64,000 bases of DNA, from NCBI GenBank assembly GCA_902826215.1, contig CADEDY010000012.1, positions 1 to 64,000 of the forward strand. The letters are read 5' to 3'. This stretch comes from an uncultured Bacteroidota bacterium. GTDB taxonomy: Bacteria; Bacteroidota; Bacteroidia; Flavobacteriales_F; PHOS-HE28. Below, one piece after another: positions 285 through 17,759 of the stretch. The first letter of the stretch is position 1, and the number at the start of each line of letters is the position of its first letter. The notes beneath the pieces are model-generated. The model saw nothing but the letters and a program-made list of their open reading frames with translations. It did no database searches and was not told the origin of the DNA. The position numbers were made by a program, and so were the translations under genes.

Positions 285-953
285 ATGGCCCAGCGGACTC
301 CCCTCCCCAGCGTTGCCCCGGTTCGGGTGATGGTGGGGATCGCGCACGACGAGAACCTGGTGCGCAAGGGATTCCGCAGCGCTTTGCAGGAGGCGGGCAT
401 GGAGGTGGCGATCGCCGTGGACACGCTTGCCGATCTGGAGGTGGGTTTGCGCAGCTTGCCGGACGTGCGGGTGCTGGTGGTGCAGCTGCACCTGCCGGTG
501 AAGCAGATGACGGAGGACCTGGAGCGGTTGATGCGCCGTAGCAAGTTGCCGGTGATCGTGATCGGTGCGCTGAACGGGCCCGTGGTGGAGACCTTGGTGC
601 AACTGGATGTGAAGGGGGTGTTGACCAACAAGGTGCTGGACCCCGAACTGGTGACGGCGGTGCAGGTGGTGGCGCAGGGCGGCATCCATGCCAACAATTG
701 GATGCTGGACCAATTGAAGCACAAGCGCAAACGGACCACGCTGGACGAGGAGCGCAGCAACGTGAAGCTGACGGCCAAGTTGGAGCAGACCGCACAGTTG
801 CTCTTCGACCACCCCGAATTGGGCATGCCGGCGCTGGCTGCCCTTGCGAACCTGAACAAACGCACGCTGGAAAGCCGCGCGAAGGCCTTGTACGACAAGA
901 TGAACCTGGCCAACCGCAATGCCTTCATGAAGTACAAGGGCCTGCACAGATAG
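285..953 (+). CDS. Pseudo-receiver / LuxR-type HTH regulator
   Basis: A 222-residue protein with the layout of a NarL/LuxR response regulator: a CheY-like receiver (about residues 13-130) and a C-terminal helix-turn-helix (about 160-220, around LAALANLNKRTLESRAKALY). It aligns by eye with the response regulators at 8384 and 9929, but the key receiver residues are changed. The acidic pair is His21-Asp22, the phosphoacceptor position (VVDLHMP in the paralogue) reads VVQLHLP with Gln67, and the Thr/Ser position is Gly. It probably binds DNA and works without Asp phosphorylation (inference). The frame is open upstream to base 15, but ATG 285 fits where the receiver fold begins. It stands alone; the next 560 bases hold repeats. 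Confidence 0.75.
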   Translation: MAQRTPLPSVAPVRVMVGIAHDENLVRKGFRSALQEAGMEVAIAVDTLADLEVGLRSLPDVRVLVVQLHLPVKQMTEDLERLMRRSKLPVIVIGALNGPVVETLVQLDVKGVLTNKVLDPELVTAVQVVAQGGIHANNWMLDQLKHKRKRTTLDEERSNVKLTAKLEQTAQLLFDHPELGMPALAALANLNKRTLESRAKALYDKMNLANRNAFMKYKGLHR

Positions 954-1006: not shown

Positions 1007-1331
1007 GGCACGACTTGCAACACACGTGGTACGACGTGCACGGTAGGTGCAACGACTTGCACGGTAAGTGGTACGACCTGCGTGATCGTCGGCCTCCCTG
1101 TATGTGATCGTCGGCACGACTTGCACGGCGGGTGGCACGACTTGCGTGATCGGTGGTACGACTTGCACGGTAAGTCGCACGACTTGCGCAACAGGTGGTA
1201 CGACGTGCATGAACGGTGCAACGACCTGCACGGCAAGAGGCACGACTTGCGTGATCGTCGGCCTCCCTGTACATGATCGTCGGTACGACTTGCAAGGCAA
1301 GTGGTACGACCTGCGTGATCGTCGGCCTCCC
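1007..1331. repeat. 21-bp tandem repeat array (about 13 units)
   Basis: Units of 21 bp with consensus GGYACGACYTGCRYGRYMRGT start at 1007, 1028, 1049, 1070, 1113, 1134, 1155, 1176, 1197, 1218, 1239, 1282 and 1303. Two 22-bp interrupting units (1091 and 1260) begin GGCCTCCCTGTA and end TGATCGTC. The CGACNTGC core is most conserved and the second half of each unit varies. Because 21 is a multiple of three, all frames stay open; one gives Gly-Thr-Thr-Cys heptads, but no start context, signal peptide or flanking domain supports a gene. The array fills most of the gene-free stretch 954-1516; 1332-1516 shows nothing recognisable. Confidence 0.9.
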
Positions 1332-1540
1332 TTGCCGTGTTGGTGCATGGTGTTCACACGCACATGCGGGCACTTTTGAAAATGCCCGTCCACCGCGGGA
1401 TGCAGAAGACCAATTCCGTATGTGCACGGAGTTTCGCGTCCGGGGCGTACCCGGTATTCCACTTCGCCGCGTGCAGCCTTCCTGGTCCGGATCCCGTGTA
1501 AGGGTCAAACTAAACCATGGCACTGGACAGGCCGAACAAA

Positions 1541-2467: not shown

Positions 2468-2986
2468 ATGCAAACACAACAGCAACACATCGAGACCTTG
2501 AGCGCGTTCGAGCGGGAATACCTGGATTGGTATGTGCGAGCGCACGACACCGTGGGGGAGCCCTTCGACCCGCAGGTGTATCTACAACTGGCCCGGGCGC
2601 AGTGGAGCAACAGGCCGCAGCTGGCCGAAACGTTCGCACGTTGCACCGCGCATTGGTACGCGAGCGAGGAACACCTGTACTCGTACTTCTGCGCGCCGAT
2701 GCATCGCCGACTACGTGGTGATCACGCCGGCTGTCTCTTTCTTCAACACCCCACGCTGGGGCGCCTGGTGGTGGATGTTCGGCACGACGCCGACGTGGCC
2801 GGCGGACTGGCCGTCAGCGGCATCGAATACCTGGACCGCGTGATGCGCAGCGTGAAGGAGGAAACGTACGACCTGTACTGGCCCGCGGGCGATGCGGTGC
2901 CGACGAGCCGCGCACCGCAACAGGGGCGGATGCGCGTTGTGCACGTGGCTAGCACGGTCGTGGGACAACGCGGTAAGGGCCGATGA
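2468..2986 (+). CDS. Hypothetical protein
   Basis: About 172 residues from ATG 2468 (MQTQQQHIETLSAFEREYLDWYVRAHD). The N-terminal part looks helical, followed by an alpha/beta stretch (GRLVVDVRHDADVAGGLAVSG). No family is recognised, and there is no signal peptide or membrane segment. The open frame extends upstream to 2363 through low-complexity sequence, so earlier starts (2363, 2438) are unlikely. Its last codons and TGA stop lie inside the first copy of the palindromic array, so the C-terminus (GQRGKGR) is at least partly made of repeat sequence. It could be a truncated gene whose end was replaced by the repeat. Confidence 0.5.
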   Translation: MQTQQQHIETLSAFEREYLDWYVRAHDTVGEPFDPQVYLQLARAQWSNRPQLAETFARCTAHWYASEEHLYSYFCAPMHRRLRGDHAGCLFLQHPTLGRLVVDVRHDADVAGGLAVSGIEYLDRVMRSVKEETYDLYWPAGDAVPTSRAPQQGRMRVVHVASTVVGQRGKGR

Positions 2987-3126
2987 TCATCGGCCCCAGC
3001 ACCAACGAACGACGTAAGGGCCGATGATCATCGGCCCCAATACCAACGAACGACGTAAGGGCCGATGATCATCGGCCCCAATACCAACGAACGACGTAAG
3101 GGCCGATGATCATCGGCCCCAACACG
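2974..3126. repeat. 41-bp tandem array with perfect 20-nt palindrome (4 copies)
   Basis: Four copies of GGGCCGATGATCATCGGCCC at 2977, 3018, 3059 and 3100 with an exact 41-bp period, each preceded by GTAA. The linker is about CCAATACCAACGAACGAC, with one or two differences in the outer copies. Each palindrome can fold into an 8-bp GC-rich stem with a GATC loop. The linkers are near identical, so this is not a CRISPR array. There is no T-run after the stems, so simple intrinsic termination is not supported. It sits between two same-strand genes. Confidence 0.95.
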
Positions 3127-3145
3127 AACGGACCGGATGACACCG

Positions 3146-4110: not shown

Positions 4111-5817
4111 TTATGGAACCGGCTTCGTCTGCTTCTCGGTCTTCGGCCAGAGGAAGGAGATGCCGAAGAAGAAACCCGTGCCGTAGCGTTTTGCGGTGAG
4201 GTCGTTCTCCTTCAATTCATCTGCACCGTACGATCGATCCACCTGCAAGCTGGGTTTCAGTGCATCCACTTGAGAGAGAACTGCGCCGACGTGAATGGAT
4301 GCCCAAGGGTCGCGCCCTAAGAGGATGCCCGCGCCGCCATACATCGTGACATCGCTGAACTCGGTCATGTTCAAACCGAAGCCGATGAGGCCGTCCGGTT
4401 TCCACCTCCTGTTCGTCCGCTTGGAGATGTGCACCGTAGCAGCCAGTGCGGGACGGACATTCCCGAGTTCCGTGTTCTGCCGTAGGATGCGCATGGCGTC
4501 ATCGTTGGGATCGGTATCCAAGCGGTAGGACCGATCGACCAAGCCGATGATGGCGACCGGTCCAGTGCCGAAATCGACTTTGGCACCGCCGCAGATGTAT
4601 TGCTTGTAGGTGAAGACACCATCCATCGGACTGCAAGGCCCTTTGTGCCCCTCCCGTGGTTCCACCTTCACCTCGAATTCGATGAGGTCGGCCTCTGCTT
4701 GTACGGGTAGGGACCGGACGGTGAACGCCTCACCGGATGTTACGGCGAGGTAGGTTGCGAGCACGTCGCTCATGCGCGAGGGGTGGTCCGCCTTCACATA
4801 GGCATCGTGGATCTGCGTGATCGCTTTCCGGATCTTCTCGACCCGTGCTTTTTCGTTGGGATCCTCCGCCATTTTCTGGCTCACTTCCGGGCGACGCAGG
4901 AACGAATCGTACTGCTCATTGAATTCATCAATGGCCTTCTTCAGGTAGTACTCCATACCATGAAGACCGCCGTTCCAGCCATTGTCCTCGCCAAGTTTCC
5001 TGACCTTTTCCTGGATGGCGGTGGTGGACAAGCAGGCGTCGTGCAAGATGGTCTCCATGACCTTGAATTGGAGTATCGCGTAGTTCAGGTTGTCATCTTG
5101 CTCAACGACCCCGTTCGCTTTTGCGATCAACTTCTCAATGCTCTCCTGGTACTTGTCGACGACCATTTTATCCAATTGCTTGGTCGTTTCTTCGAGCTGT
5201 TTGGACAGGCGTTCCGCTTGCTTCGTGCTGGCCTCCACCTGCTGTTTGAGCACCACATTGATCGAGTCGAGCATGGGTTTGTAGTCGCGAACGTTCTCAC
5301 GGGATAGGGAGTCCTCTTTGGATCCTTTCGCATAGTCGGCGAGCAGGTTCTTTATGGCCTCGATGTCGGTGGTCACCGGTCGTGAAACGATCTTGTTCAG
5401 TTCCTCCTTCAGCTTTTTCTGATCGGCGAGGAGTTTGTTGTTCTGTTCCTTCATTTCCTCCAAGAGGGTCCGTGTTTCGCTCTGTTGCTGCTCGGTCTCT
5501 TTCGTGGTGGGTTTCTGTCCGACGGCCGCATTGACGTCCGCTTTTGCGTCAGCCGTGTTGGATGCCGGGAAACCGATGAAGTCGCCGACCTTGCCTGAAG
5601 GCTCGGTGTACACCCGCACATTCTTACCGGTTATGGTCACCTTCTGGGTGGCCGGGTTCACGTTGATCAGCTCGATCACCGTGGTCGAGTCCATGGAAAG
5701 GCAGCTTTTCGGCGTGGTCATTCGCATGTTGCTGGCGTCAAGGGTGATCCGCGTGTGTTGGGCGGATGCGCTGATGATCAGCGCATGGAAGAAGAGGAGT
5801 AGGGTGTTGCGTAGCAT
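4111..5817 (-). CDS. Secreted coiled-coil protein with barrel-like C-terminus
   Basis: 568 residues from ATG at 5817. It begins with a signal peptide (MLRNTLLLFFHALIISASAQ, cleavage after SAQ). Residues about 30-90 form a beta-rich head; about 100-260 is a long Lys/Glu/Gln-rich coiled coil (NNKLLADQKKLKEELNK; QAERLSKQLEETTKQLDKM). The C-terminal 150 residues alternate hydrophobic strands with Gly and aromatic residues (GLIGFGLNMTEF, YGGAGILLG, GTGFFFGISFLW), like an outer-membrane barrel segment. No named family recognised. It is divergent from the lipoprotein at 5965, sharing a 147-bp control region, and the two may work together at the outer membrane (inference). Confidence 0.75.
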   Translation of the reverse strand: MLRNTLLLFFHALIISASAQHTRITLDASNMRMTTPKSCLSMDSTTVIELINVNPATQKVTITGKNVRVYTEPSGKVGDFIGFPASNTADAKADVNAAVGQKPTTKETEQQQSETRTLLEEMKEQNNKLLADQKKLKEELNKIVSRPVTTDIEAIKNLLADYAKGSKEDSLSRENVRDYKPMLDSINVVLKQQVEASTKQAERLSKQLEETTKQLDKMVVDKYQESIEKLIAKANGVVEQDDNLNYAILQFKVMETILHDACLSTTAIQEKVRKLGEDNGWNGGLHGMEYYLKKAIDEFNEQYDSFLRRPEVSQKMAEDPNEKARVEKIRKAITQIHDAYVKADHPSRMSDVLATYLAVTSGEAFTVRSLPVQAEADLIEFEVKVEPREGHKGPCSPMDGVFTYKQYICGGAKVDFGTGPVAIIGLVDRSYRLDTDPNDDAMRILRQNTELGNVRPALAATVHISKRTNRRWKPDGLIGFGLNMTEFSDVTMYGGAGILLGRDPWASIHVGAVLSQVDALKPSLQVDRSYGADELKENDLTAKRYGTGFFFGISFLWPKTEKQTKPVP

Positions 5818-5964
5818 GGCTTTGTGGATTTGCGTGCCACAAAGCACCCCTGATCGCTCATGCCCGAATAGCGTTCTATTCACTGGCGGGGACCACGTAT
5901 TTTTCACCTGGTCACACGCCTTGGTGGCGATTTCCTTTGCGAACAGATCCACATACACTGAACA

Positions 5965-6945
5965 ATGAACACCACTCCAAACAGTATCGGCCAACTAGCC
6001 TGTCTAGTAGGTTGCCTCGGACTTTCCATGCTGGTCGGCTGCGGGCCGGAACCGGAAAAGCAAGTGCCTACTCCACCTTCCCAAGAGAAGACGATCCAAA
6101 CGAACGAAGTCGTTACACTCACCGTGCAGAAGGATGCTTCGAAAGGACTCTCACTTATGCGCTTGGGCTTGGTCCCGGTCGACCCGCCCACCGGGCCGAT
6201 CACCACCAATGATTATCAGGTATACCGCAACGACCACGAGGACCACTTCAAGGTCTTCACTGGAGTTCTATTCGAAGGGCAGGAGAAGTTGATACCCCTG
6301 AACAACGTGCGGCACGAGGTCCCGTGGTACAAATTGGCGGAATTGGTCGCGAGTTACGGGGGGGGTGTCGTAGGAATTCAGATCTCCTACGGCCTGTTCC
6401 AAGGTGCTTTCCTACCGGTGTATGAAATGGTGAAATTGGATGGTTTGGAACCCACCGTCATCACGGATTCAGGATGGATCTATGACGTAAAAGAAGGAGC
6501 CTTCAAGAAGGCCAGCGATACGGTGCGCAAGGATCTGATGAAGCACTATACGGATTCTGTTCGGGTCAAGCGCACGAACGCAGCTGCGTTCAACGCATTG
6601 GACGCCGCCCGGGATCCCAGTTCCATTTTCTTCTCTTGGAACGACCGTTTCGTGAAATTGATGAATGACAACCCCGGCTCCCTTCCGCCGACGCTGATAG
6701 TGGCCCCCAACGACCCACGGTATCTGGTGATCACATGCATGGCTTATGAGGCAAATCTCCCACCTGGGTCGCCCAACAAAGAGTATCGCCATGCACTTGG
6801 TCTGCATGTGGCCAAACTGGTGGAGCATGCAGGTATTTCCGTGCTCGTGGACCAATTGAATGGTTCGAACACTTCCGATCATACCATGAGGGCCATGGAC
6901 ATCGGTGCGCTGTGCCCCCCGAACTGCCCGAAACGCACCCTCTAG
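5965..6945 (+). CDS. Lipoprotein of unknown function
   Basis: 326 residues. The N-terminus carries a lipoprotein signal (GCLGLSMLVGC, lipobox LVGC), so it should be lipidated and anchored in the envelope. After a Pro/Glu-rich linker there is a mixed alpha/beta domain with no family I recognise (DHFKVFTGVLFEGQEKLIPLN; ITDSGWIYDVKEG; ILVDQLNGSNTSDH-type end). It contains Cys-Pro-Pro-Asn-Cys-Pro close to the C-terminus, which could form a disulfide or metal site. It is divergent from the coiled-coil secreted protein at 5817, and the next gene starts 31 bases downstream on the same strand, so they may be co-transcribed. Confidence 0.7.
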   Translation: MNTTPNSIGQLACLVGCLGLSMLVGCGPEPEKQVPTPPSQEKTIQTNEVVTLTVQKDASKGLSLMRLGLVPVDPPTGPITTNDYQVYRNDHEDHFKVFTGVLFEGQEKLIPLNNVRHEVPWYKLAELVASYGGGVVGIQISYGLFQGAFLPVYEMVKLDGLEPTVITDSGWIYDVKEGAFKKASDTVRKDLMKHYTDSVRVKRTNAAAFNALDAARDPSSIFFSWNDRFVKLMNDNPGSLPPTLIVAPNDPRYLVITCMAYEANLPPGSPNKEYRHALGLHVAKLVEHAGISVLVDQLNGSNTSDHTMRAMDIGALCPPNCPKRTL

Positions 6946-6976
6946 GTGCCTGAGCAACCAGTGACGATACCGAAGC

Positions 6977-7627
6977 ATGTTGGACCTTGGGATGGCATTG
7001 AACGTGGTGATCATGCTGGTCGCTTGGGTGGCCTGGTGGCGTGTACCTGACATACGGTCATGGTCCTTCGTCCAGGTCCTCCGGATCACTATCCTAATGG
7101 CTTTGCTCACCGAGGTGCTCGGTATCGTGTTGGCGCACACGATCGGAAGGAATGCGTTCATGTACAACGTATCCACACTCGTCGAGTTCCTACTGGTCCT
7201 GTGGCTGGTGGGGCGTTATCGGCCCGAATGGAGAGTCCGCGTCTTCGTTGCTGCGATCATGGGCACGTTCGGGTTCGTGTGCAATTTCTGGTTCAATGAT
7301 CCCTTCGAATTCTTGATGTCCGAAGCGGTTCTGCTGTACGCCTTTATCCTGTGTACTCTGATCCTTATGGTACTTTGGCACATGGCGAACACGAGTGTTC
7401 GGTCCTTGCATCGGGTGCCGGAATTCTGGGTGTTCATGGGGTTGCTCGTTTTCTATGGTGGATTGATGCCCATCGTGGCCCTCATCCGTTTCATCTTCTA
7501 CGATGATGAGCAGCTTGCGACCCAATTGTACAGGGTCATCACGGTCCTGATCTTCGTGCGCTATTCCATGTTCACAGCGGCGGGTATCTTGGCTCGACAC
7601 AACGTTGGAGCACATGGACATGGATAG
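6977..7627 (+). CDS. Multi-pass membrane protein, candidate sensor partner of a kinase (module A)
   Basis: 216 residues with about six hydrophobic helices and short loops (VVIMLVAWVAWW; ILMALLTEVLGIVLA; LVEFLLVLWLVG; VLLYAFILCTLILMVLW; VFMGLLVFYGGLMPIVALI; VITVLIFVRYSMFTAAGIL). It has the same length, topology and position as the protein at 11568, with matching landmarks such as LHRVPEFWVFMGLLVFY versus LHREPLFWVLLSIMVYY and IFVRY versus FVIRY. Its 3' end overlaps the downstream histidine kinase start, so translation is coupled. It may act as the sensor for that kinase, which has no sensory domain of its own (inference). Confidence 0.8.
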   Translation: MLDLGMALNVVIMLVAWVAWWRVPDIRSWSFVQVLRITILMALLTEVLGIVLAHTIGRNAFMYNVSTLVEFLLVLWLVGRYRPEWRVRVFVAAIMGTFGFVCNFWFNDPFEFLMSEAVLLYAFILCTLILMVLWHMANTSVRSLHRVPEFWVFMGLLVFYGGLMPIVALIRFIFYDDEQLATQLYRVITVLIFVRYSMFTAAGILARHNVGAHGHG

Positions 7628-8387
7628 GGAACGGTACATCTTCATCGTGCTCGTGGGCACTGCCTTCATCCTTTCCATGATCGGGATCGTAGGCTTCCTC
7701 ATGGTCGTCAACACCAACCGCCGCCACCGCCACCGCGCCGAACTCGCCGAGGCCGACCTGCGTCGCGAGAGCGAGGTGATGCAGGCCGAGCGCGAGGCGA
7801 CGGAGCAGACCTTGAACGAGATCGGGCGGGAGCTGCACGACAGCGTGGGGCAGTTGCTCACCGTGGCGCAGATGGGGTTCCTGAACCGGCTGGACCCGGC
7901 GTTGCTGGAGGAAGCACCGGTGGCCACGGCGATGGGCGCGCTGGACGAAGGCATCGAAGAGGTGCGGCGCTTGGGGCGTTCGCTCAACAGCGACCTCTGG
8001 CAGGAGCGGGCCTTAGTGGATGCCTTGGAAGCCGAAGCCGTGCGCATCGAACGGCTCGGTCGCGGGCGGGTGCTGCTGACGGTGGAAGGCGATCCTGCGG
8101 ATCCCTCGGCGGACATCAAGACGGTGCTCTTCCGGACCTTCCAAGAGGTGATGAACAATGCCTTGAAGCACAGCGGGGCCGACACGTTGGAGATCACCGT
8201 GAGCGGCAATACGCTGCCCGCGTTGCGCATCGCCGACAACGGGCGTGGCTTCGATGCGACGACCGCGAAGAACGGCGGCGGCCTCGTGAACATCCGGAAA
8301 CGTTGCACCCTGATCGGTTACCAGGCCAAGCTGGAAACGGAGACCGGCAAGGGCTGCGTTTGGACCTTGACACCTACCACCCAATGA
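7620..8387 (+). CDS. Single-TM HisKA_3-type histidine kinase (module A)
   Basis: 255 residues. One N-terminal TM helix (about 7-30, FIVLVGTAFILSMIGIVGF) is followed by a short coiled coil. The HisKA_3 phosphoacceptor motif is ELHDSVGQLL with His73, and the HATPase domain has N-box EVMNNALKHSGA, G1 IADNGRGF and a late GGGLVNIRKR. There is no periplasmic or PAS sensor. ATG 7620 is chosen because it places the His at residue 73, as in the paralogue at 12214; in-frame TTG 7605 and ATG 7614 are also possible. It overlaps the upstream membrane gene by 8 bases and the downstream response regulator by 4 (ATGA), giving a tightly coupled three-gene unit. Confidence 0.9.
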   Translation: MDRERYIFIVLVGTAFILSMIGIVGFLMVVNTNRRHRHRAELAEADLRRESEVMQAEREATEQTLNEIGRELHDSVGQLLTVAQMGFLNRLDPALLEEAPVATAMGALDEGIEEVRRLGRSLNSDLWQERALVDALEAEAVRIERLGRGRVLLTVEGDPADPSADIKTVLFRTFQEVMNNALKHSGADTLEITVSGNTLPALRIADNGRGFDATTAKNGGGLVNIRKRCTLIGYQAKLETETGKGCVWTLTPTTQ

Positions 8388-9040
8388 CAGCGATCGCCTT
8401 GGTCGACGACCACCACTTGATGCGCGCCGGCCTCGTGGGCATGGTGAACGGACTGCCCGGTTTCGAAGTCACCCTCGAAGCGGCGAACGGCAAAGAGCTC
8501 ATCGAGCTCTTGCGCGATGCGACGCCACCGGCCATCGCCATCGTGGACCTCAACATGCCGGTGATGGACGGCTATGCGACGATCGCGTGGCTGCGTGAAC
8601 ATGCACCGAACATCCTGCCGTTGGCGCTCACCTTCGACGCGACCGATGATGCGATGGTGCGTGCCGTGCGCGCCGGTGCACGTGGCTTTGTGCTCAAGAG
8701 CGCACGTCCGCAGGTGCTCAAGAACGCCTTGGATTCGTTGCTGCTCACGGGCTACTACTACACCGATGCATCGCACGATGTGCTGACACGTCACCCGGAA
8801 ATGAAGACGCGCGAGGAGCGCGAACGGGACAAGGTGGTGGCGGACATCACGCCGCGCGAACTGGAGTTCCTGCACCTGGTCTGCGACGAGTCGGAACCGA
8901 CCTACGAGGAGATCGCCGCGCGCATGGGTGTGCACCGCCGCACGGTGGACAACTACCGGATCGCGCTGTTCGACAAGTTCAACATCAAGAGCAAGACCGG
9001 ACTGGTGCTCTTCGCGATGCGCTGGGGGTTGATGCCGTGA
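8384..9040 (+). CDS. NarL/LuxR-type response regulator (module A)
   Basis: 218 residues. Receiver domain with the acidic pair Asp8-Asp9, phosphoacceptor Asp55 (AIVDLNMPVMDGY), Thr in LALTF and Lys in GFVLKS. The C-terminal LuxR-type HTH is about 145-215 (ITPRELEFLHLVCDESEPTYEEIAARMGVHRRTVDNYR). It starts within the kinase stop (ATGA), so it is the cognate regulator of the kinase at 7620. It is complete and all key residues are present. Confidence 0.93.
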   Translation: MTAIALVDDHHLMRAGLVGMVNGLPGFEVTLEAANGKELIELLRDATPPAIAIVDLNMPVMDGYATIAWLREHAPNILPLALTFDATDDAMVRAVRAGARGFVLKSARPQVLKNALDSLLLTGYYYTDASHDVLTRHPEMKTREERERDKVVADITPRELEFLHLVCDESEPTYEEIAARMGVHRRTVDNYRIALFDKFNIKSKTGLVLFAMRWGLMP

Positions 9041-9081
9041 GGGCGCGCAGTGGACGTTCTGCGTTCGCTAACTCCGGCGCC

Positions 9082-9768
9082 TCACAGCTTGACGAACTTC
9101 AGGATCCCCAAGGGCGTGCTGCGATCGTCCGAGAGGTGCATGAAATACACCCCTGCCGGCAGGGGGGCGACATCGACGCGGTCTCCTGCCTGTATGTTGG
9201 CGTGGGTGGCCACGAGGGCGCCGCTCACATTCATGATCGAAACCGCATAGTTGCTGCCAACTCCCCTGATCTGCACATGATCAACGGCCGGCGACGGAAA
9301 GACAGTGATGTTCGCACGGTCGGTGCTTCCTGGGTCGGCAAGGCCGGTCTGTAGGCCGCCACTGATCCCGAGGAGGGCCCAGTTGCCGATGAACACACCC
9401 GGGATCACCTCGGTCTCTTGCCAAAACAGGGTATCGATGACGGTGCAGGTGATGCCCGAGCTGTCGTTGGTGATCACCAAGGTCACCTGCATGGAATCGG
9501 TGATCGGCACCGTGTGGTCGAATGCCATGAATGCCTGTCCCGGGAAATCGCCGGATGTATTTGCTTGCTGAACGATGTCGCCGGAGAAGGTGGAGACCTC
9601 CCATACACACACATTGGCAAAGCCGGAAGGCAGGAGGAAGAACCCGGCTTGATACAATTGCACATAGGTGGTATCGGATGTCGACACGGACAAGCCCATC
9701 GAGGAGCACTGGCTCTGCGCCAGGAGGTGCGAGAACAACAGGGGAAGCAGGGCGTGGATCTTCTTCAT
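9082..9768 (-). CDS. Secreted protein with T9SS type A sorting domain
   Basis: 228 residues from the ATG at 9768. It has a signal peptide (MKKIHALLPLLFSHLLAQSQ), then a beta-rich middle domain of about 120 residues with no recognised family. The C-terminal domain of about 75 residues is of the Por_Secre_tail kind: ITVFPSPAVDHVQIRG, then YAVSIMNVSGALV, then GDRVDVAPLPAGVYFMHL. Such tails send proteins through the type IX secretion system to the surface, where the tail is removed. Convergent with the response regulator at 8384; the gap is about 40 bases. Confidence 0.85.
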   Translation of the reverse strand: MKKIHALLPLLFSHLLAQSQCSSMGLSVSTSDTTYVQLYQAGFFLLPSGFANVCVWEVSTFSGDIVQQANTSGDFPGQAFMAFDHTVPITDSMQVTLVITNDSSGITCTVIDTLFWQETEVIPGVFIGNWALLGISGGLQTGLADPGSTDRANITVFPSPAVDHVQIRGVGSNYAVSIMNVSGALVATHANIQAGDRVDVAPLPAGVYFMHLSDDRSTPLGILKFVKL

Positions 9769-9928
9769 GCGATAGGGTCGTACGTTGTTCGTGCAGTTCA
9801 GTAGGACAAAGAACGGGCTGAATGGATGTTGAAGTGGGTGATCCGCCTTCAACGAGAAGAACCAAGGATATCGGCAGCGACCCTTCACTTGGAGCAATGC
9901 TCTTTCGCGGAAGCTGCGTATCATTGAC

Positions 9929-10657
9929 ATGCCTGAAATGCGTACCCCAGCTCCCGTCCATCGGATACCCGTTGCCCTGGTCGATGACCACGCCTTGTTG
10001 CGCAACATGCTTGCCAACATGATCGGTAGCATGCCCGCTTACGAGGTGGTGCTGGAAGCGGCGAACGGGGCCGAGCTGGTGAAGGCGATGGAGTCCACGG
10101 ACCTTCGGGTCTCGGTGGCGGTGGTTGATCTGCATATGCCCGTGATGGATGGCTATGAGACCATCGGGTGGTTGCGCACCCATCACCCGGCGACGCGGTC
10201 GTTGGCCCTCACCTTCGAGCGCACCCAACAGGCCATGGAACGTTCGTTGCAAGCGGGGGCCTGCGGCTTCATTCTGAAGGATGTGGGCTACGAGGAATTC
10301 AAGGATGCGTTGGACCAAGTGGCCACGGTCGGCCATTACCATAACAAGGTGGTACTGGATCCGCCGATCGTTGCCGAGCCGGTGCAGGAGAAGTTGCAGA
10401 CCCCGATCGGCAAGCCCCTGTTCGGGGACGAGCGACCTCGATCGCCCAGCTCGGTGTCGTTCACGGAACGCGAACGCGCCTTCGTTCAGCTGGCCTGCGA
10501 CCTTCGCGAACTCACGTACGATCAGATCGCCGAGGAAATGGAGGTGCATCGGCGCACCGTGGATGGTTACCGCGATGCGGTGTTCACCAAGTTGAACGTG
10601 AAGACCCGTGCAGGTATGGTGTTGTGCGTGCTGCAATGGGGCCTGGTGGAGCAATGA
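9929..10657 (+). CDS. NarL/LuxR-type response regulator
   Basis: 242 residues, paralogous to the regulator at 8384. Receiver: Asp19-Asp20 pair, phosphoacceptor Asp67 (AVVDLHMPVMDGYETIGWLR, identical layout), Lys in GFILKD. C-terminal LuxR HTH (FTERERAFVQLACDLRELTYDQIAEEMEVHRRTVDGY). The linker between domains is longer than in the paralogue. No kinase is next to it; the nearest free kinase is at 12214 (module B), separated by a frameshifted gene and the membrane protein, so it is the likely partner (inference). Confidence 0.92.
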   Translation: MPEMRTPAPVHRIPVALVDDHALLRNMLANMIGSMPAYEVVLEAANGAELVKAMESTDLRVSVAVVDLHMPVMDGYETIGWLRTHHPATRSLALTFERTQQAMERSLQAGACGFILKDVGYEEFKDALDQVATVGHYHNKVVLDPPIVAEPVQEKLQTPIGKPLFGDERPRSPSSVSFTERERAFVQLACDLRELTYDQIAEEMEVHRRTVDGYRDAVFTKLNVKTRAGMVLCVLQWGLVEQ

Positions 10658-10713
10658 TGAACAGGTTGCGGGGAATCGCATAACAATTTCCACGACCCCC
10701 GTACTATGGAACA

Positions 10714-10756
10714 GGGGGGTCATTTACACGGGTAAGGGGGGGTCATTTACACGGGT
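10714..10756. repeat. Direct repeat of GGGGGGTCATTTACACGGGT
   Basis: Two head-to-tail copies (10714-10733 and about 10736-10756), separated by AA and differing by one G in the G-run. They sit about 60 bases before the start of the frameshifted gene at 10815 and 57 bases after the response regulator stop, so they are a candidate operator. The copies are spaced about two helical turns apart. Confidence 0.75.
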
Positions 10757-10814
10757 CCGATCGCTGGCGGGGGTGGTATGGGGCGGATAGTTTCGGCCCC
10801 ATCAAATCCAACCC

Positions 10815-11545
10815 ATGTCATCCATGCCCAATGGCGCGATCACGCGCACGCAGTTCGACGCTGCACGCAACCAGTTCAAGGATCGGTTCCTGGTGAACGG
10901 AACCACGGTGGTGACCGAAGTATTGCAACATTTCAAGTACAGCGACCTCGCTGATCTGGTCGCGGTGATCGAACAACCCTACCGACTGGTGATCGTGCAT
11001 TACGGTCTGGAGGAACAGAGATGCGGTATGGTTTCAGCTTCACCTTCGGCACACGGATCGCCGGTACGGATTCCTATGTGTACACGAAGCAGCATCATGC
11101 CTCGCACCTGCTCACCCCGGCAGGTTTCGTGCCCATTCCCGAAGCGGCTTGGGATGCCTTGCGCAAGAGCTACGAAGAGACGATGATGACGAAACGCGAC
11201 AGCGGTCCGTTCGAGAAATTGGTGGAGGTGGACGCGCTTCGCACCGTGCTCCCTTGGGAAGCTGAGCTGCAGCCACTCTACGTTGACAACGTATCACAGA
11301 GCCCCGAGGACTACCGCATGATGGTGGAGAGCATGAGCCGTTTCCACGATGAGGAAGTGGGTGAGGATGGTGCAAAGAGCTTGAAAGGGTTCCGCCACGA
11401 TATCGGCTTCTACATGGAAGAACTCCAAGGCCAGGATTGGGTACGCTTGCTCGGCGATGCGGTGGAATCGGCGCCGTACCGCAACCGTGCTGCCGATTTC
11501 GGCAACCTTTGCCCGGTATTGTGCGGCACCTATACCGAGGTGTGA
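10815..11545 (+). pseudogene. Hypothetical gene interrupted by a single-base frameshift
   Basis: Two ORFs join end to end but in different frames. Frame one runs from ATG 10815 (MSSMPNGAITRTQFDAARNQ) to about base 11018 (VIVHYGLEEQ), and frame two from about 11021 to TGA 11545 (MRYGFSFTFGTRIAGTDSYV to CGTYTEV). The total of 731 bases is one short of a multiple of three, so one lost base near 11015-11022 (GAACAGAGATGCGG) would restore a 243-residue protein. The sequence after the shift in frame one (GMVSASPSAHGSPV) is low-quality shadow coding. The product has no signal peptide and no family I recognise. It could be a true decayed gene, a programmed shift or a sequencing error. Confidence 0.7.
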
Positions 11546-11567
11546 CCATCCCCAACGAACGCCGACC

Positions 11568-12227
11568 ATGAATGTGCTCGGAACATACAAGGAACTGGTG
11601 CTGGTAGCAGCCCTCTTCGCATGGTTCATAGCACGGAGGCGTGCGTCCCAGAAGTGGTTCCCTTGGGTGGGTGCCTTATTGATCCTGGAATTCACGGTGG
11701 AGATCGTGGCCAAGCTGCTCTCCAGCAGGGGCATCAACAATCACCTTGCGTACAATGTGTTCTTCGCGGTGGAGTTCGTGGTGATCGCACGCCTGTTGTA
11801 CATCAACTGGCCCGAAGCCCGCCACTTGCGCCGCGTGGTGCAGGTGGCCGTTGCGATCTTCCTGCCCACCCTGGTCTGGGATCTCGGATCGCACGATTCG
11901 GCGCATTACCTCGCCACCAACGCGCTGATCATCGGTGGCCTGCTCCTGGGTGCCATCTCGGCGAAAGCGCTCTTTGTTCTAGCGCGCGAGAGCATTGTTC
12001 CGCTGCATCGCGAACCGTTGTTCTGGGTCCTGCTCTCGATCATGGTGTACTATTTGACCTTCATACCGATATTCGGTCTGTACAACTACCTCATTGCCCA
12101 GAACTCGCCGATCACGTTCCAGTTGAACTACATCAACAATGTCCTCTTCGTGATCCGTTATGGATCTGTACTGACCGGTCTGGTGATGCTGTACCGACAA
12201 GCGACCCCATCTCATGACGGGCAATGA
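11568..12227 (+). CDS. Multi-pass membrane protein, candidate sensor partner of a kinase (module B)
   Basis: 219 residues, paralogue of the protein at 6977, with six or seven hydrophobic helices (KELVLVAALFAWFIA; WVGALLILEFTVEIVAKLL; VFFAVEFVVIARLLYI; VAVAIFLPTLVWDLG; LIIGGLLLGAISAKALFVL; FWVLLSIMVYYLTFIPIFGLYNYLI; VLFVIRYGSVLTGLVML). The open frame extends to 11457, but ATG 11568 lies just after the stop of the frameshifted gene and begins the first helix. It overlaps the kinase gene at 12214 by 14 bases. It probably senses or localises a signal for that kinase (inference). Confidence 0.8.
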   Translation: MNVLGTYKELVLVAALFAWFIARRRASQKWFPWVGALLILEFTVEIVAKLLSSRGINNHLAYNVFFAVEFVVIARLLYINWPEARHLRRVVQVAVAIFLPTLVWDLGSHDSAHYLATNALIIGGLLLGAISAKALFVLARESIVPLHREPLFWVLLSIMVYYLTFIPIFGLYNYLIAQNSPITFQLNYINNVLFVIRYGSVLTGLVMLYRQATPSHDGQ

Positions 12228-12984
12228 CATTCTGATCACCATCGTTGTCAGCTGCCTCAGTATCCTGGTGGTGCTGTCGTTGGTGGTGGCGTTGTTGGTG
12301 ATCAGCTCCAACCGGCAGAACCGGCACCGTGCGGAACTGGCGAGCGCGGAATTGCAACGTGAACGGGATGTGATGAAGGCCGAACGCGAAGCCGTGCAGC
12401 ACACCTTGCACGAGGTTGGCATGGAGTTGCACGACAACGTTGCACAATTGCTTTCAACCACCCAATTCGGTCTTTCCACAGCGCTCAACGAGGACCCACG
12501 GAACGGGTTCGTCAACTCGGCGTACGCGAGCGTGCTGCAGGCCTTGGGCGAGGTGCGTCGCCTCAGCCACACGCTGTCCACCGATATGTGGAGGAACCGC
12601 ACCTTGGACGAAGCCATCGGGATCGAAGCCCTGCGCTTGCAGCGCTTGGGGAATATGCCGGTGCACGTGGATGTGATCGGGACCTTGCCCGTCATGAGCA
12701 TCGAAGTGAACACCGCCTTGTACCGCGTTTTCCAAGAAGTGGTGAACAACGCGATCAAGCACAGCGGAGCCGATAGGCTGGAGGTGACCCTCTCGGCCAT
12801 GCCGCTCTTCAACCTCACCATCGCGGACAATGGCAAGGGGTTCGATCCGCTCACCAACAGGTCGGGCAACGGCATGGCCAACATCACCCGTCGGTGCGAC
12901 AACATCGCATTCAGGGCGGTGTGTACCAGCAATCCGGGACAAGGGTGCAAGTGGCGGTTCCAAGAGCTACCAGCTTCGGCCTGA
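12214..12984 (+). CDS. Single-TM HisKA_3-type histidine kinase (module B)
   Basis: 256 residues with one TM helix (about 6-30), then a coiled stretch nearly identical in layout to the kinase at 7620 (NRHRAELASAELQRERDVMKAEREA). Phosphoacceptor His73 is in MELHDNVAQLL. The HATPase domain shows N-box EVVNNAIKHSGA, G1 IADNGKGF and NGMANITRR. There is no extracellular or PAS sensor. It overlaps the upstream membrane gene by 14 bases. No response regulator follows; the partner is probably the regulator at 9929. Confidence 0.9.
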   Translation: MTGNDILITIVVSCLSILVVLSLVVALLVISSNRQNRHRAELASAELQRERDVMKAEREAVQHTLHEVGMELHDNVAQLLSTTQFGLSTALNEDPRNGFVNSAYASVLQALGEVRRLSHTLSTDMWRNRTLDEAIGIEALRLQRLGNMPVHVDVIGTLPVMSIEVNTALYRVFQEVVNNAIKHSGADRLEVTLSAMPLFNLTIADNGKGFDPLTNRSGNGMANITRRCDNIAFRAVCTSNPGQGCKWRFQELPASA

Positions 12985-13424
12985 TCGGTTCGACCCCGCA
13001 GGAAGTTGCTTGTCGACGTGTTCGATCAAGCACACTGTTCGTGCGCGCACCGGCGCAATAGAACAAAGGTTAGATGGGCCCCTTGGCCTACGTGACCGCT
13101 AGTTGGGCCAACTTGCCGTCCAAACCTGATAACCATGGTCCGGTTCGCCCTTCATCGTTCGCTGCTTGTCCTGTTCGGAGCACTTTTTCTGATGACCACC
13201 AACGCCCAGCAGGCGTGGGTGCCTTATGAGTTGGTGTTGTTGCGGAAAGCTGATACATCGACTGAGCAATTGCGCGGGTCGCGAGCAGGTCGACCATCCA
13301 TGATGTGTTCTTGCTTTCTGCGGCATAGCGATCGACCGCTGATGACCTGTGCAGGGAAGCAGTGAGCGACTTCATTCCTGGATCACGACCATTTCCTAAC
13401 TTGAACGAATTGAACGAAGTACCC
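12985..13424. other. Gene-poor stretch with a possible secreted-protein remnant
   Basis: No complete gene is seen in these 440 bases. ATG 13135 opens a 76-codon frame to 13365 whose first 35 residues look like a signal peptide and mature start (RSLLVLFGALFLMTTNAQQ, then AWVPYELVLL). It then turns into Arg/Ser/Cys-rich sequence typical of out-of-frame reading. It could be the 5' end of a decayed secreted-protein gene, or chance. Confidence 0.4.
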
Positions 13425-14387
13425 ATGGAGAATAGGAACATGATGCGTCAGTCGATCACCGTGCTCGGCTTCATCACTGCTGGACTTGTTCGCGGTCAAT
13501 CCGTTGATCCGGCCGTCATCGGTGCTGCAGGTGGGAGTGGGGACGTTACCGGCATTAGAGTGGATTGGGCGGTCGGCGAGCTGACCACCACTACGCTGGA
13601 CAACGGAACGAACCTGGTGACCCAAGGCTTCCATCAAGGCGATCCCGTGAAGGTGGCCTTGAACATCCGTGCCTTTCTGCAAGGCCCGTACAACAGTGGT
13701 ATTGGGGCGATGACCGATGGCCTCCGTGCGAACGGACTCGTACCTACGCAAGAGCCGTATACCGCTGCGGGGTATGGCTTCATCGGAGGCGGCGGCGAAA
13801 GCACGACACAAATGATGCTCGACTTCCCGGGCAGCAACGCGATCATCGACTGGGTCCTCTTGGAACTGCGCGACAAGACCAACAACACGAGTGTGTTGTA
13901 TGCGCGCAGCGCCTTGCTGCAGGCCGATGGCGATGTCGTTGATGTGGACGGCTTCTCCGCTGTTGACTTTCGCGTTGCATCGGATGATTATTTCATCTGT
14001 GTGCTGCATCGCAACCATCTTTCGGTCATGACCCTTGAACCGGTCACATTGTCCCGCATCGCGACCGCAGTGGACCTGACCAATGGCAGCACCGCCACGT
14101 TCGGAACGAACGCGCAGCAGGTCTCGGCCGGCACGTACCTCTTATGGGCCGGTGATGTGAACGCAGACGGCACCATCATCTACACCGGTCAGGACAACGA
14201 CCGCGATCCGATCCTCAGCGCGATCGGCGGCGTGGTACCCACCAATACCATCACGGCTTACCACAAGGGCGATGTGAACATGGATGGCACCGTGATGTAT
14301 ACCGGCGAAGGCAACGACCGTGATCCGATCCTACAGAATATCGGTGGCGTGGTGCCGACGAATGTGCGGCTGGGGCAGGTGCCGTAG
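13425..14387 (+). CDS. Secreted protein with two Asp-rich dockerin-like repeats
   Basis: 320 residues; signal peptide after the start (MMRQSITVLGFITAGLVRGQ, cleavage near GQS). The N-terminal segment (IGAAGGSGDVTGIRVDWAVGE, then NLVTQGFHQ) is typical of surface proteins of Bacteroidota. A central beta-rich domain follows. The C-terminus has two near-identical motifs about 40 residues apart: GDVNADGTIIYTGQDNDRDP and GDVNMDGTVMYTGEGNDRDP, each followed by IL..IGGVVPTN. The DxNxDG core resembles a calcium-binding dockerin/EF-hand loop. No T9SS tail of the usual kind follows; the repeats may act as a substitute tail or binding module. ATG 13425 is chosen; 13440 is possible. Confidence 0.75.
   Translation: MENRNMMRQSITVLGFITAGLVRGQSVDPAVIGAAGGSGDVTGIRVDWAVGELTTTTLDNGTNLVTQGFHQGDPVKVALNIRAFLQGPYNSGIGAMTDGLRANGLVPTQEPYTAAGYGFIGGGGESTTQMMLDFPGSNAIIDWVLLELRDKTNNTSVLYARSALLQADGDVVDVDGFSAVDFRVASDDYFICVLHRNHLSVMTLEPVTLSRIATAVDLTNGSTATFGTNAQQVSAGTYLLWAGDVNADGTIIYTGQDNDRDPILSAIGGVVPTNTITAYHKGDVNMDGTVMYTGEGNDRDPILQNIGGVVPTNVRLGQVP

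Positions 14388-16313: not shown

Positions 16314-17759
<1,446 letters not shown>

Follow-up and report, generated by a model that had tools for sequence, protein, structure and literature searches.

The repeat and its genes

What is a 20-base word doing in two copies, nearly side by side, in the gap between a response regulator gene and the gene that follows it? The window analyzed here (64,000 nucleotides of contig C12 of G000, the source genome, a 4.16-Mb assembly in 51 contigs from an uncultured Bacteroidota bacterium) carries GGGGGGTCATTTACACGGGT at 10714 to 10733 and again at 10737 to 10756, both on the forward strand, 43 bases in total. An earlier note, made from sequence, had drawn attention to this direct repeat, and both copies are indeed there; the gap between them, given in the note as two bases, is in fact three (AAG), and the start-to-start distance is 23 bp. 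The core of each copy, TTTACACGGGT, occupies 10723 to 10733 and 10746 to 10756, respectively. The note had also placed the repeat between a response regulator and a gene at 10815, and this is where it lies: the regulator gene, RR9929, spans 9929 to 10657 upstream, and the next open reading frame (ORF) runs from 10815 to 11186.

RR9929, on the plus strand, encodes a response regulator of the NarL/LuxR type, having a receiver domain (Response_reg, E = 1.5e-20) and a LuxR-type helix-turn-helix (GerE, E = 2.4e-6), both above the Pfam cut-off. Among its sequence matches in the PDB, DevR was best and NarL was also among the best; it matches NarL-type NCBIfam models below their equivalog cut-offs. 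Downstream, and on the same strand, is gene X (10815 to 11545), with no Pfam match. The earlier note called this gene frameshifted, and we agree: the frame that opens at 10815 is lost near 11015 to 11025 and continues in an ORF at 11021 to 11545. The gene X match in two other genomes of the genus, G005 and G036, falls within a single open frame of 249 codons (a 241-amino-acid ORF at L097:2298-3023). Mutation and assembly error could both explain the frame break. X is followed on the plus strand by a hypothetical gene (11568 to 12227; no Pfam match, orthologues in G036 and G005), whose product, by eye, may be membrane protein-like, and then by a histidine kinase gene (12214 to 12984; HATPase_c by Pfam), the proposed partner of RR9929.

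Two further features of these regulators are worth recording. The stretches from 5965 to 9040 and from 9929 to 12984 are adjacent paralogous two-component modules, each with a hypothetical gene, a kinase, and a regulator, and further copies of the module are present in G038:C15. Near the start of the window, RR285 (285 to 953, plus strand) encodes a response regulator-like protein with a Response_reg match below the cut-off; it has VVQL where RR9929 and its relatives have VVDL, so the usual phospho-acceptor aspartate is seemingly missing.

Related arrays in the genome and the genus

The earlier note took the repeat for a plausible binding site and proposed looking for it in other promoters; a lack of binding and of further copies would have spoken against this. 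Further copies do exist, and arrays were found both in the same genome and in its relatives. Exact GGGGGTNNNTTACACGGG gave 13 matches in 3 of the 45 genus genomes (9 in G000 and 4 in 2 of the 44 others), with none for the backwards control in all 45. When up to two mismatches were allowed in G000, there were 12 matches, 10 of them in arrays and 2 isolated, against 5 for the control. The 10 copies make up three arrays: 2 in the window, 2 on C22, and 6 on C39. Paired cores 22 to 44 bp apart gave 10 matches in 4 of the 45 genomes and a second pair pattern gave 9 in 3, each with a control of 0; a left-arm variant with one mismatch gave 12 matches in 5 of the 45 (control, 1). Three of the left-arm-variant matches, single one-mismatch sites in G018, G035, and G002, may have arisen by chance. 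Overall, three further genomes of the genus have arrays with the same core, NTTACACGGGT, and a fourth has a diverged array.

The arrays are confined to the genus as far as the search went (98 relatives, of which 53 belong to other genera); beyond the genus there was one isolated one-mismatch match, in G060, and one control match. No match was found on plasmids with a 51-base query, on viral contigs with the paired pattern, or in genome collections with the strict pair pattern, and the loose pair pattern found one contig in those collections, by sequence the same as G036:C266. In the literature searched, we found neither the core word TTTACACGGGT nor work on LuxR-type direct-repeat sites in Flavobacter or on minisatellites with response regulators.

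The compiled set comprises 31 sites in 11 arrays from five genomes, handled as 12 entries, with G036:C173 entered once for each strand that carries sites. Isolated matches were left out as nonarrays (those in C1, C3, C13, C14, and C15 of G000 and those in G060, G018, G035, and G002), and the two G005 sites were located by eye at the orthologous place rather than by a pattern. Within the window, a scan of 5000 to 14000 for weaker sites showed, besides the two copies, isolated two-mismatch matches only.

A word that turns up at several loci, always outside recognized genes, could belong to a mobile element, for example as the multiple terminal repeats of an IS21-like element, or to a dispersed REP-like repeat. 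The terminal repeats of IS21, which are G-rich and contain TCA, do resemble it. We nonetheless regard this origin as very unlikely, given that the arrays keep their orthologous place. For IS21 ends specifically, an IstB profile had no match on G000 contigs C12, C22, and C39.

Anatomy of the site

Across the 31 sites, CACG is invariant within the common core NTTACACGGGT, and the left arm varies. It is GGGGGGT in G000 and G036:C266, ACACCGG in G036:C40 and C173, and mostly ACACCGT in G038, where C15a mixes two flavors. The C173 flavor is close to a dyad, CCGGTGT-TT-ACACGGG, in a 7-2-7 layout. G036:C40 shares this near dyad with C173, G038 has it in part, and the window flavor, which is not an inverted repeat, lacks it. 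We count both the variation of the left arm between arrays and the lack of an inverted repeat in the window form against an operator array.

The G-runs of 6 and 7 plus a GGG in the window form bring to mind a structure formed by the DNA or RNA itself, such as a G-quadruplex, or a leader RNA. We find this hard to credit. ACACCGG or ACACCGT replaces the G-run in most of the G036 and G038 arrays, the sites precede the predicted start, and Rfam, run on 9000 to 13000, gave a single chance hit, 800 bp away and well short of its gathering score.

Sites on a helical grid

The distances between neighboring sites are 22 (twice), 23 (eight times), 24, 33 (three times), 34, 44, 45, and 56 bp, plus 147 bp in G005. 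Those of 22 to 24, 33 to 34, 44 to 45, and 56 bp fit a grid of about 11 bp, or one helical turn. Taking all 19 spacings, the 147-bp gap included, 0 of 5,000 random sets matched the observed phasing; the best period was 11.3 bp, and a second period of 10.4 bp fits almost as well. Since the 23-bp pairs may share descent, we also considered the seven spacings not near 23 by themselves, leaving out the 147-bp gap here and in the smaller subsets (P = 5e-5 at 11.4 bp). The test on six spacings, with one 33 removed because it may be homologous, gave P = 6.5e-4, and the five spacings of C39 alone gave P = 0.004 at 10.8 bp. It should be noted that the pair searches constrained the range of spacings and not their phase. 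Repeated sites that would lie on one face of the helix, about two turns apart, are what one looks for in NarL-family operator arrays, and the grid agrees with this.

Could the arrays instead be a functionless minisatellite, with a 23-bp unit copied by slippage and the matching words elsewhere descended from it? A 23-bp distance separates most pairs, whose copies are near-identical within a locus, and neighboring loci often carry long tandem arrays, as such an origin would lead one to expect. In C39, C266, C15a, and C15b, however, the DNA between sites is unrelated and the spacing still keeps to the grid. We therefore think a minisatellite improbable, and the orthologous locus described below argues against it further. 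The simplest version, with units head to tail and no unrelated DNA between them, fits the 22- to 24-bp pairs and not those four arrays.

The orthologous locus and a promoter-like box

The gene order RR9929, X, hypothetical gene, kinase is common to G036:C40 and G005:C227, the G005 contig ending within the kinase gene. Between the regulator gene and X, G036:C40 has four sites at 23 to 24 bp, and G005:C227 has two diverged sites. The word GCGGATAGTTTCG upstream of X is identical in the window, G036, and G005. The region also holds TAGTTTCG (10788 to 10795, plus strand), a putative promoter box that agrees at five of six positions with TAnnTTTG; PMC9723704 gives that motif, at -12 to -5, as the flavobacterial housekeeping -7 box. 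The window box begins 42 nt past the start of the second core, and it recurs unchanged in G036 and G005. From the start of the last core to the box, the distance is 42, 42, and 43 nt in G000, G036, and G005, the G005 value being aligned on CACGGGT. Over the 27 bases between the last core and the box, pairwise ungapped identity among the three orthologues is only 11, 7, and 10. Core and box distance have been kept while the remaining intergenic DNA has diverged, a pattern at odds with a minisatellite.

A five-of-six box at this distance is also present in two of the nine other array entries (G000:C22 at 42 nt and G036:C173, minus strand, at 43 nt). Such boxes occur at a frequency of 0.0014 per position, which makes two of nine improbable by chance (P = 2.8e-4, taking the entries as independent). 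The other seven of the nine have no -7-like box at 42 to 43 nt, and this counts against an operator array; boxes sought in mirror orientation showed no consistent offset.

The earlier note's view of the repeat as a site for a regulator, its copies about two turns apart, appears well supported by the same-core arrays elsewhere, the 11-bp grid, and the kept distance to the promoter-like box. Which protein would bind is a separate matter.

Association with response regulators

Ten of the 11 arrays lie at response regulator or regulator-like genes or at a recurring fibronectin-III-like module: 8 adjoin regulator or regulator-like genes, with C39 included via a probable contig link, and 2 have the fibronectin module only. 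The link is a 92.7% match between the 41 bases that end G000:C39 and the 41 that open the window, so the six-site array of C39 probably lies upstream of RR285. In G036, the C266 array is upstream of the RR285 orthologue (82% identity). The regulator-like proteins encoded next to the C266 and C39 arrays have Response_reg matches below the Pfam cut-off and no LuxR helix-turn-helix match, and both points count against an operator array. The G038:C24 array is upstream of, and in opposite orientation to, a gene for a protein with a GerE domain above the cut-off. On the stretches examined, G036:C173 and G000:C22 lie beside the fibronectin-III-like module with no regulator gene seen. The remaining array, G025:C30, has neither a regulator gene nor the fibronectin module on its 5.2-kb contig.

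The earlier note had named the 9929 regulator as a candidate binder. The support is circumstantial: the gene is adjacent, an array accompanies the orthologue in each of four genomes, and the two co-occur. A relative of RR9929 with at least 50% identity is found in four genomes (G000, G036, G005, and G038), and an array adjoins it in all four, at C12, C40, C227, and, in G038, both upstream (C15a) and downstream (C15b). With this 50% threshold, which was picked after the data had been seen, paired sites are present in 3 of the 4 genomes that have such a relative and in 1 of the 41 that do not (Fisher P = 0.0011); counting the diverged pair in G005 makes it 4 of 4 (P = 3.4e-5). Arrays away from the RR9929 locus are likewise found in 3 of the 4. 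The set includes incomplete genomes, such as G003 (73%) and G040 (79%).

As a measure of relatedness, we used the conserved protein encoded at 16314 to 17669, which from its sequence we take to be glutamate dehydrogenase. The five nearest genomes (G040, G039, G021, G003, and G008; 92 to 94% over the full-length protein) have no paired sites. G005, G036, and G038 stand at 89 to 90%, and the array-bearing G025 at 92% on a fragment.

G025 is the exception in this pattern. Its best RR9929 relative is at 42%, and with no regulator gene seen beside its array, we count it against an operator array. It also favors a variant in which the arrays are operators for another protein, RR9929 being merely adjacent. 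RR8303, the close neighboring paralogue, is 46% identical to RR9929, and both have VHRRTVD in the recognition region; an RR285-like protein or an unlinked factor would be other candidates. There are 18 matches to RR9929 in G000 to choose from, and the C22 and C173 arrays likewise lack a visible regulator gene alongside. We see another binder as possible, if doubtful. Every genome whose RR9929 orthologue reaches 50% identity has an array at that locus, the 3-of-4 versus 1-of-41 distribution of paired sites follows RR9929, and the vicinity of the RR8303 operon has nothing stronger than isolated two-mismatch matches.

Long tandem arrays at fibronectin-like genes

The fibronectin-III-like genes have repeats of another kind upstream. 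All six distinct genes that we met, a class named after a single Pfam match (in L098; the window protein at 1541 to 2173 has none), are preceded by tandem arrays with a period of 21, 22, 42, or 63 bp and unrelated units, at window 1008-1321, L015:6330-6633, L098:4325-4719, L103:6788-7362, L118:5629-6110, and L099:1688-1815. A scan of 241.5 kb with minima of 100 bp and 2.5 copies per array, over stretches chosen for regulators or the motif and not as a random sample, returned six arrays, five of them at fibronectin-like genes. A NTTACACGGGT array is also present at five of the six fibronectin-like loci, at one via the probable link between C39 and the window.

One can imagine that the NTTACACGGGT arrays and the long 21-, 22-, 42-, and 63-bp arrays are one kind of element at different ages, built by duplications of two helical turns. 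We consider this unlikely. If true, operator arrays would drift along with a diverging response regulator family, keeping their period and not their sequence.

Two smaller observations belong here. In both genomes, a single TTACACGGGA word precedes the fibronectin-like gene, at window 1492-1501 (minus strand) and at L099:1427. In addition, 2973 to 3130 of the window holds a 41-bp unit repeated 3.9 times, with the palindrome GGCCGATGATCATCGGCC in each, and no open frame spans the stretch.

A proposed operator array and its known counterparts

On balance, we lean toward the repeats being an operator array for a response regulator of the NarL/LuxR type, RR9929 being the likeliest, with the sites lying upstream of the X operon as those of an activator would. 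This reading draws on the core family, the grid, the orthologous persistence, the box distance, the neighborhood, the co-occurrence, and the geometry of known arrays. We imagine that RR9929, once phosphorylated by the kinase encoded at 12214 to 12984, would bind each NTTACACGGGT site; with the sites whole helical turns apart, the bound molecules would be aligned on one face of the DNA. The last core, 42 nt before the putative -7 box, would lie at about -54 to -44 with the box placed at -12 to -5, just upstream of the position of RNA polymerase. From this placement, we infer activation rather than repression of the X, hypothetical gene, and kinase operon, which would close a feedback loop, and the remaining arrays could bring a small regulon under the same regulator. 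The paralogue RR8303 might bind the array as well.

For an uncharacterized two-component system in a Bacteroidota genus, this provides an operator word that can be put to the test and a candidate regulon of modest size. One arm of the site and the copy number vary between species, whereas the helical phase is kept, as is the spacing from the promoter-like box; the arrays may thus offer a natural series for studying the evolution of activator arrays.

The geometry appears to match the activator arrays of three NarL-family regulators: BvgA (PMC7250471), DevR (PMC3029386), and NarL at napF (PMC4549865). At BvgA-dependent promoters of Bordetella, much as proposed for the window, several sites two turns apart lie on one helix face with the last beside the core promoter; the dimers are at 22-bp centers, and the last site abuts -35 (PMC7250471). 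In that account, the weaker BvgA sites are hard to spot in sequence, whereas here each putative site has a clear core; spacings of 33, 44, and 56 bp are also found among our arrays. In Escherichia coli, the NarL site at napF lies at -40 to -49, and the NarL layout of inverted heptamers around a 2-bp gap resembles the dyad of the G036 flavor (PMC4549865), although the heptamer differs and the window flavor has no matching left heptamer. DevR/DosR of Mycobacterium is likewise a NarL-type regulator with at least two boxes per promoter; its boxes are cooperative, and the proximal one overlaps -35 (PMC3029386). Its box sequence is different. Phased arrays of NarL-family sites were already known, and the NTTACACGGGT arrays would add another.
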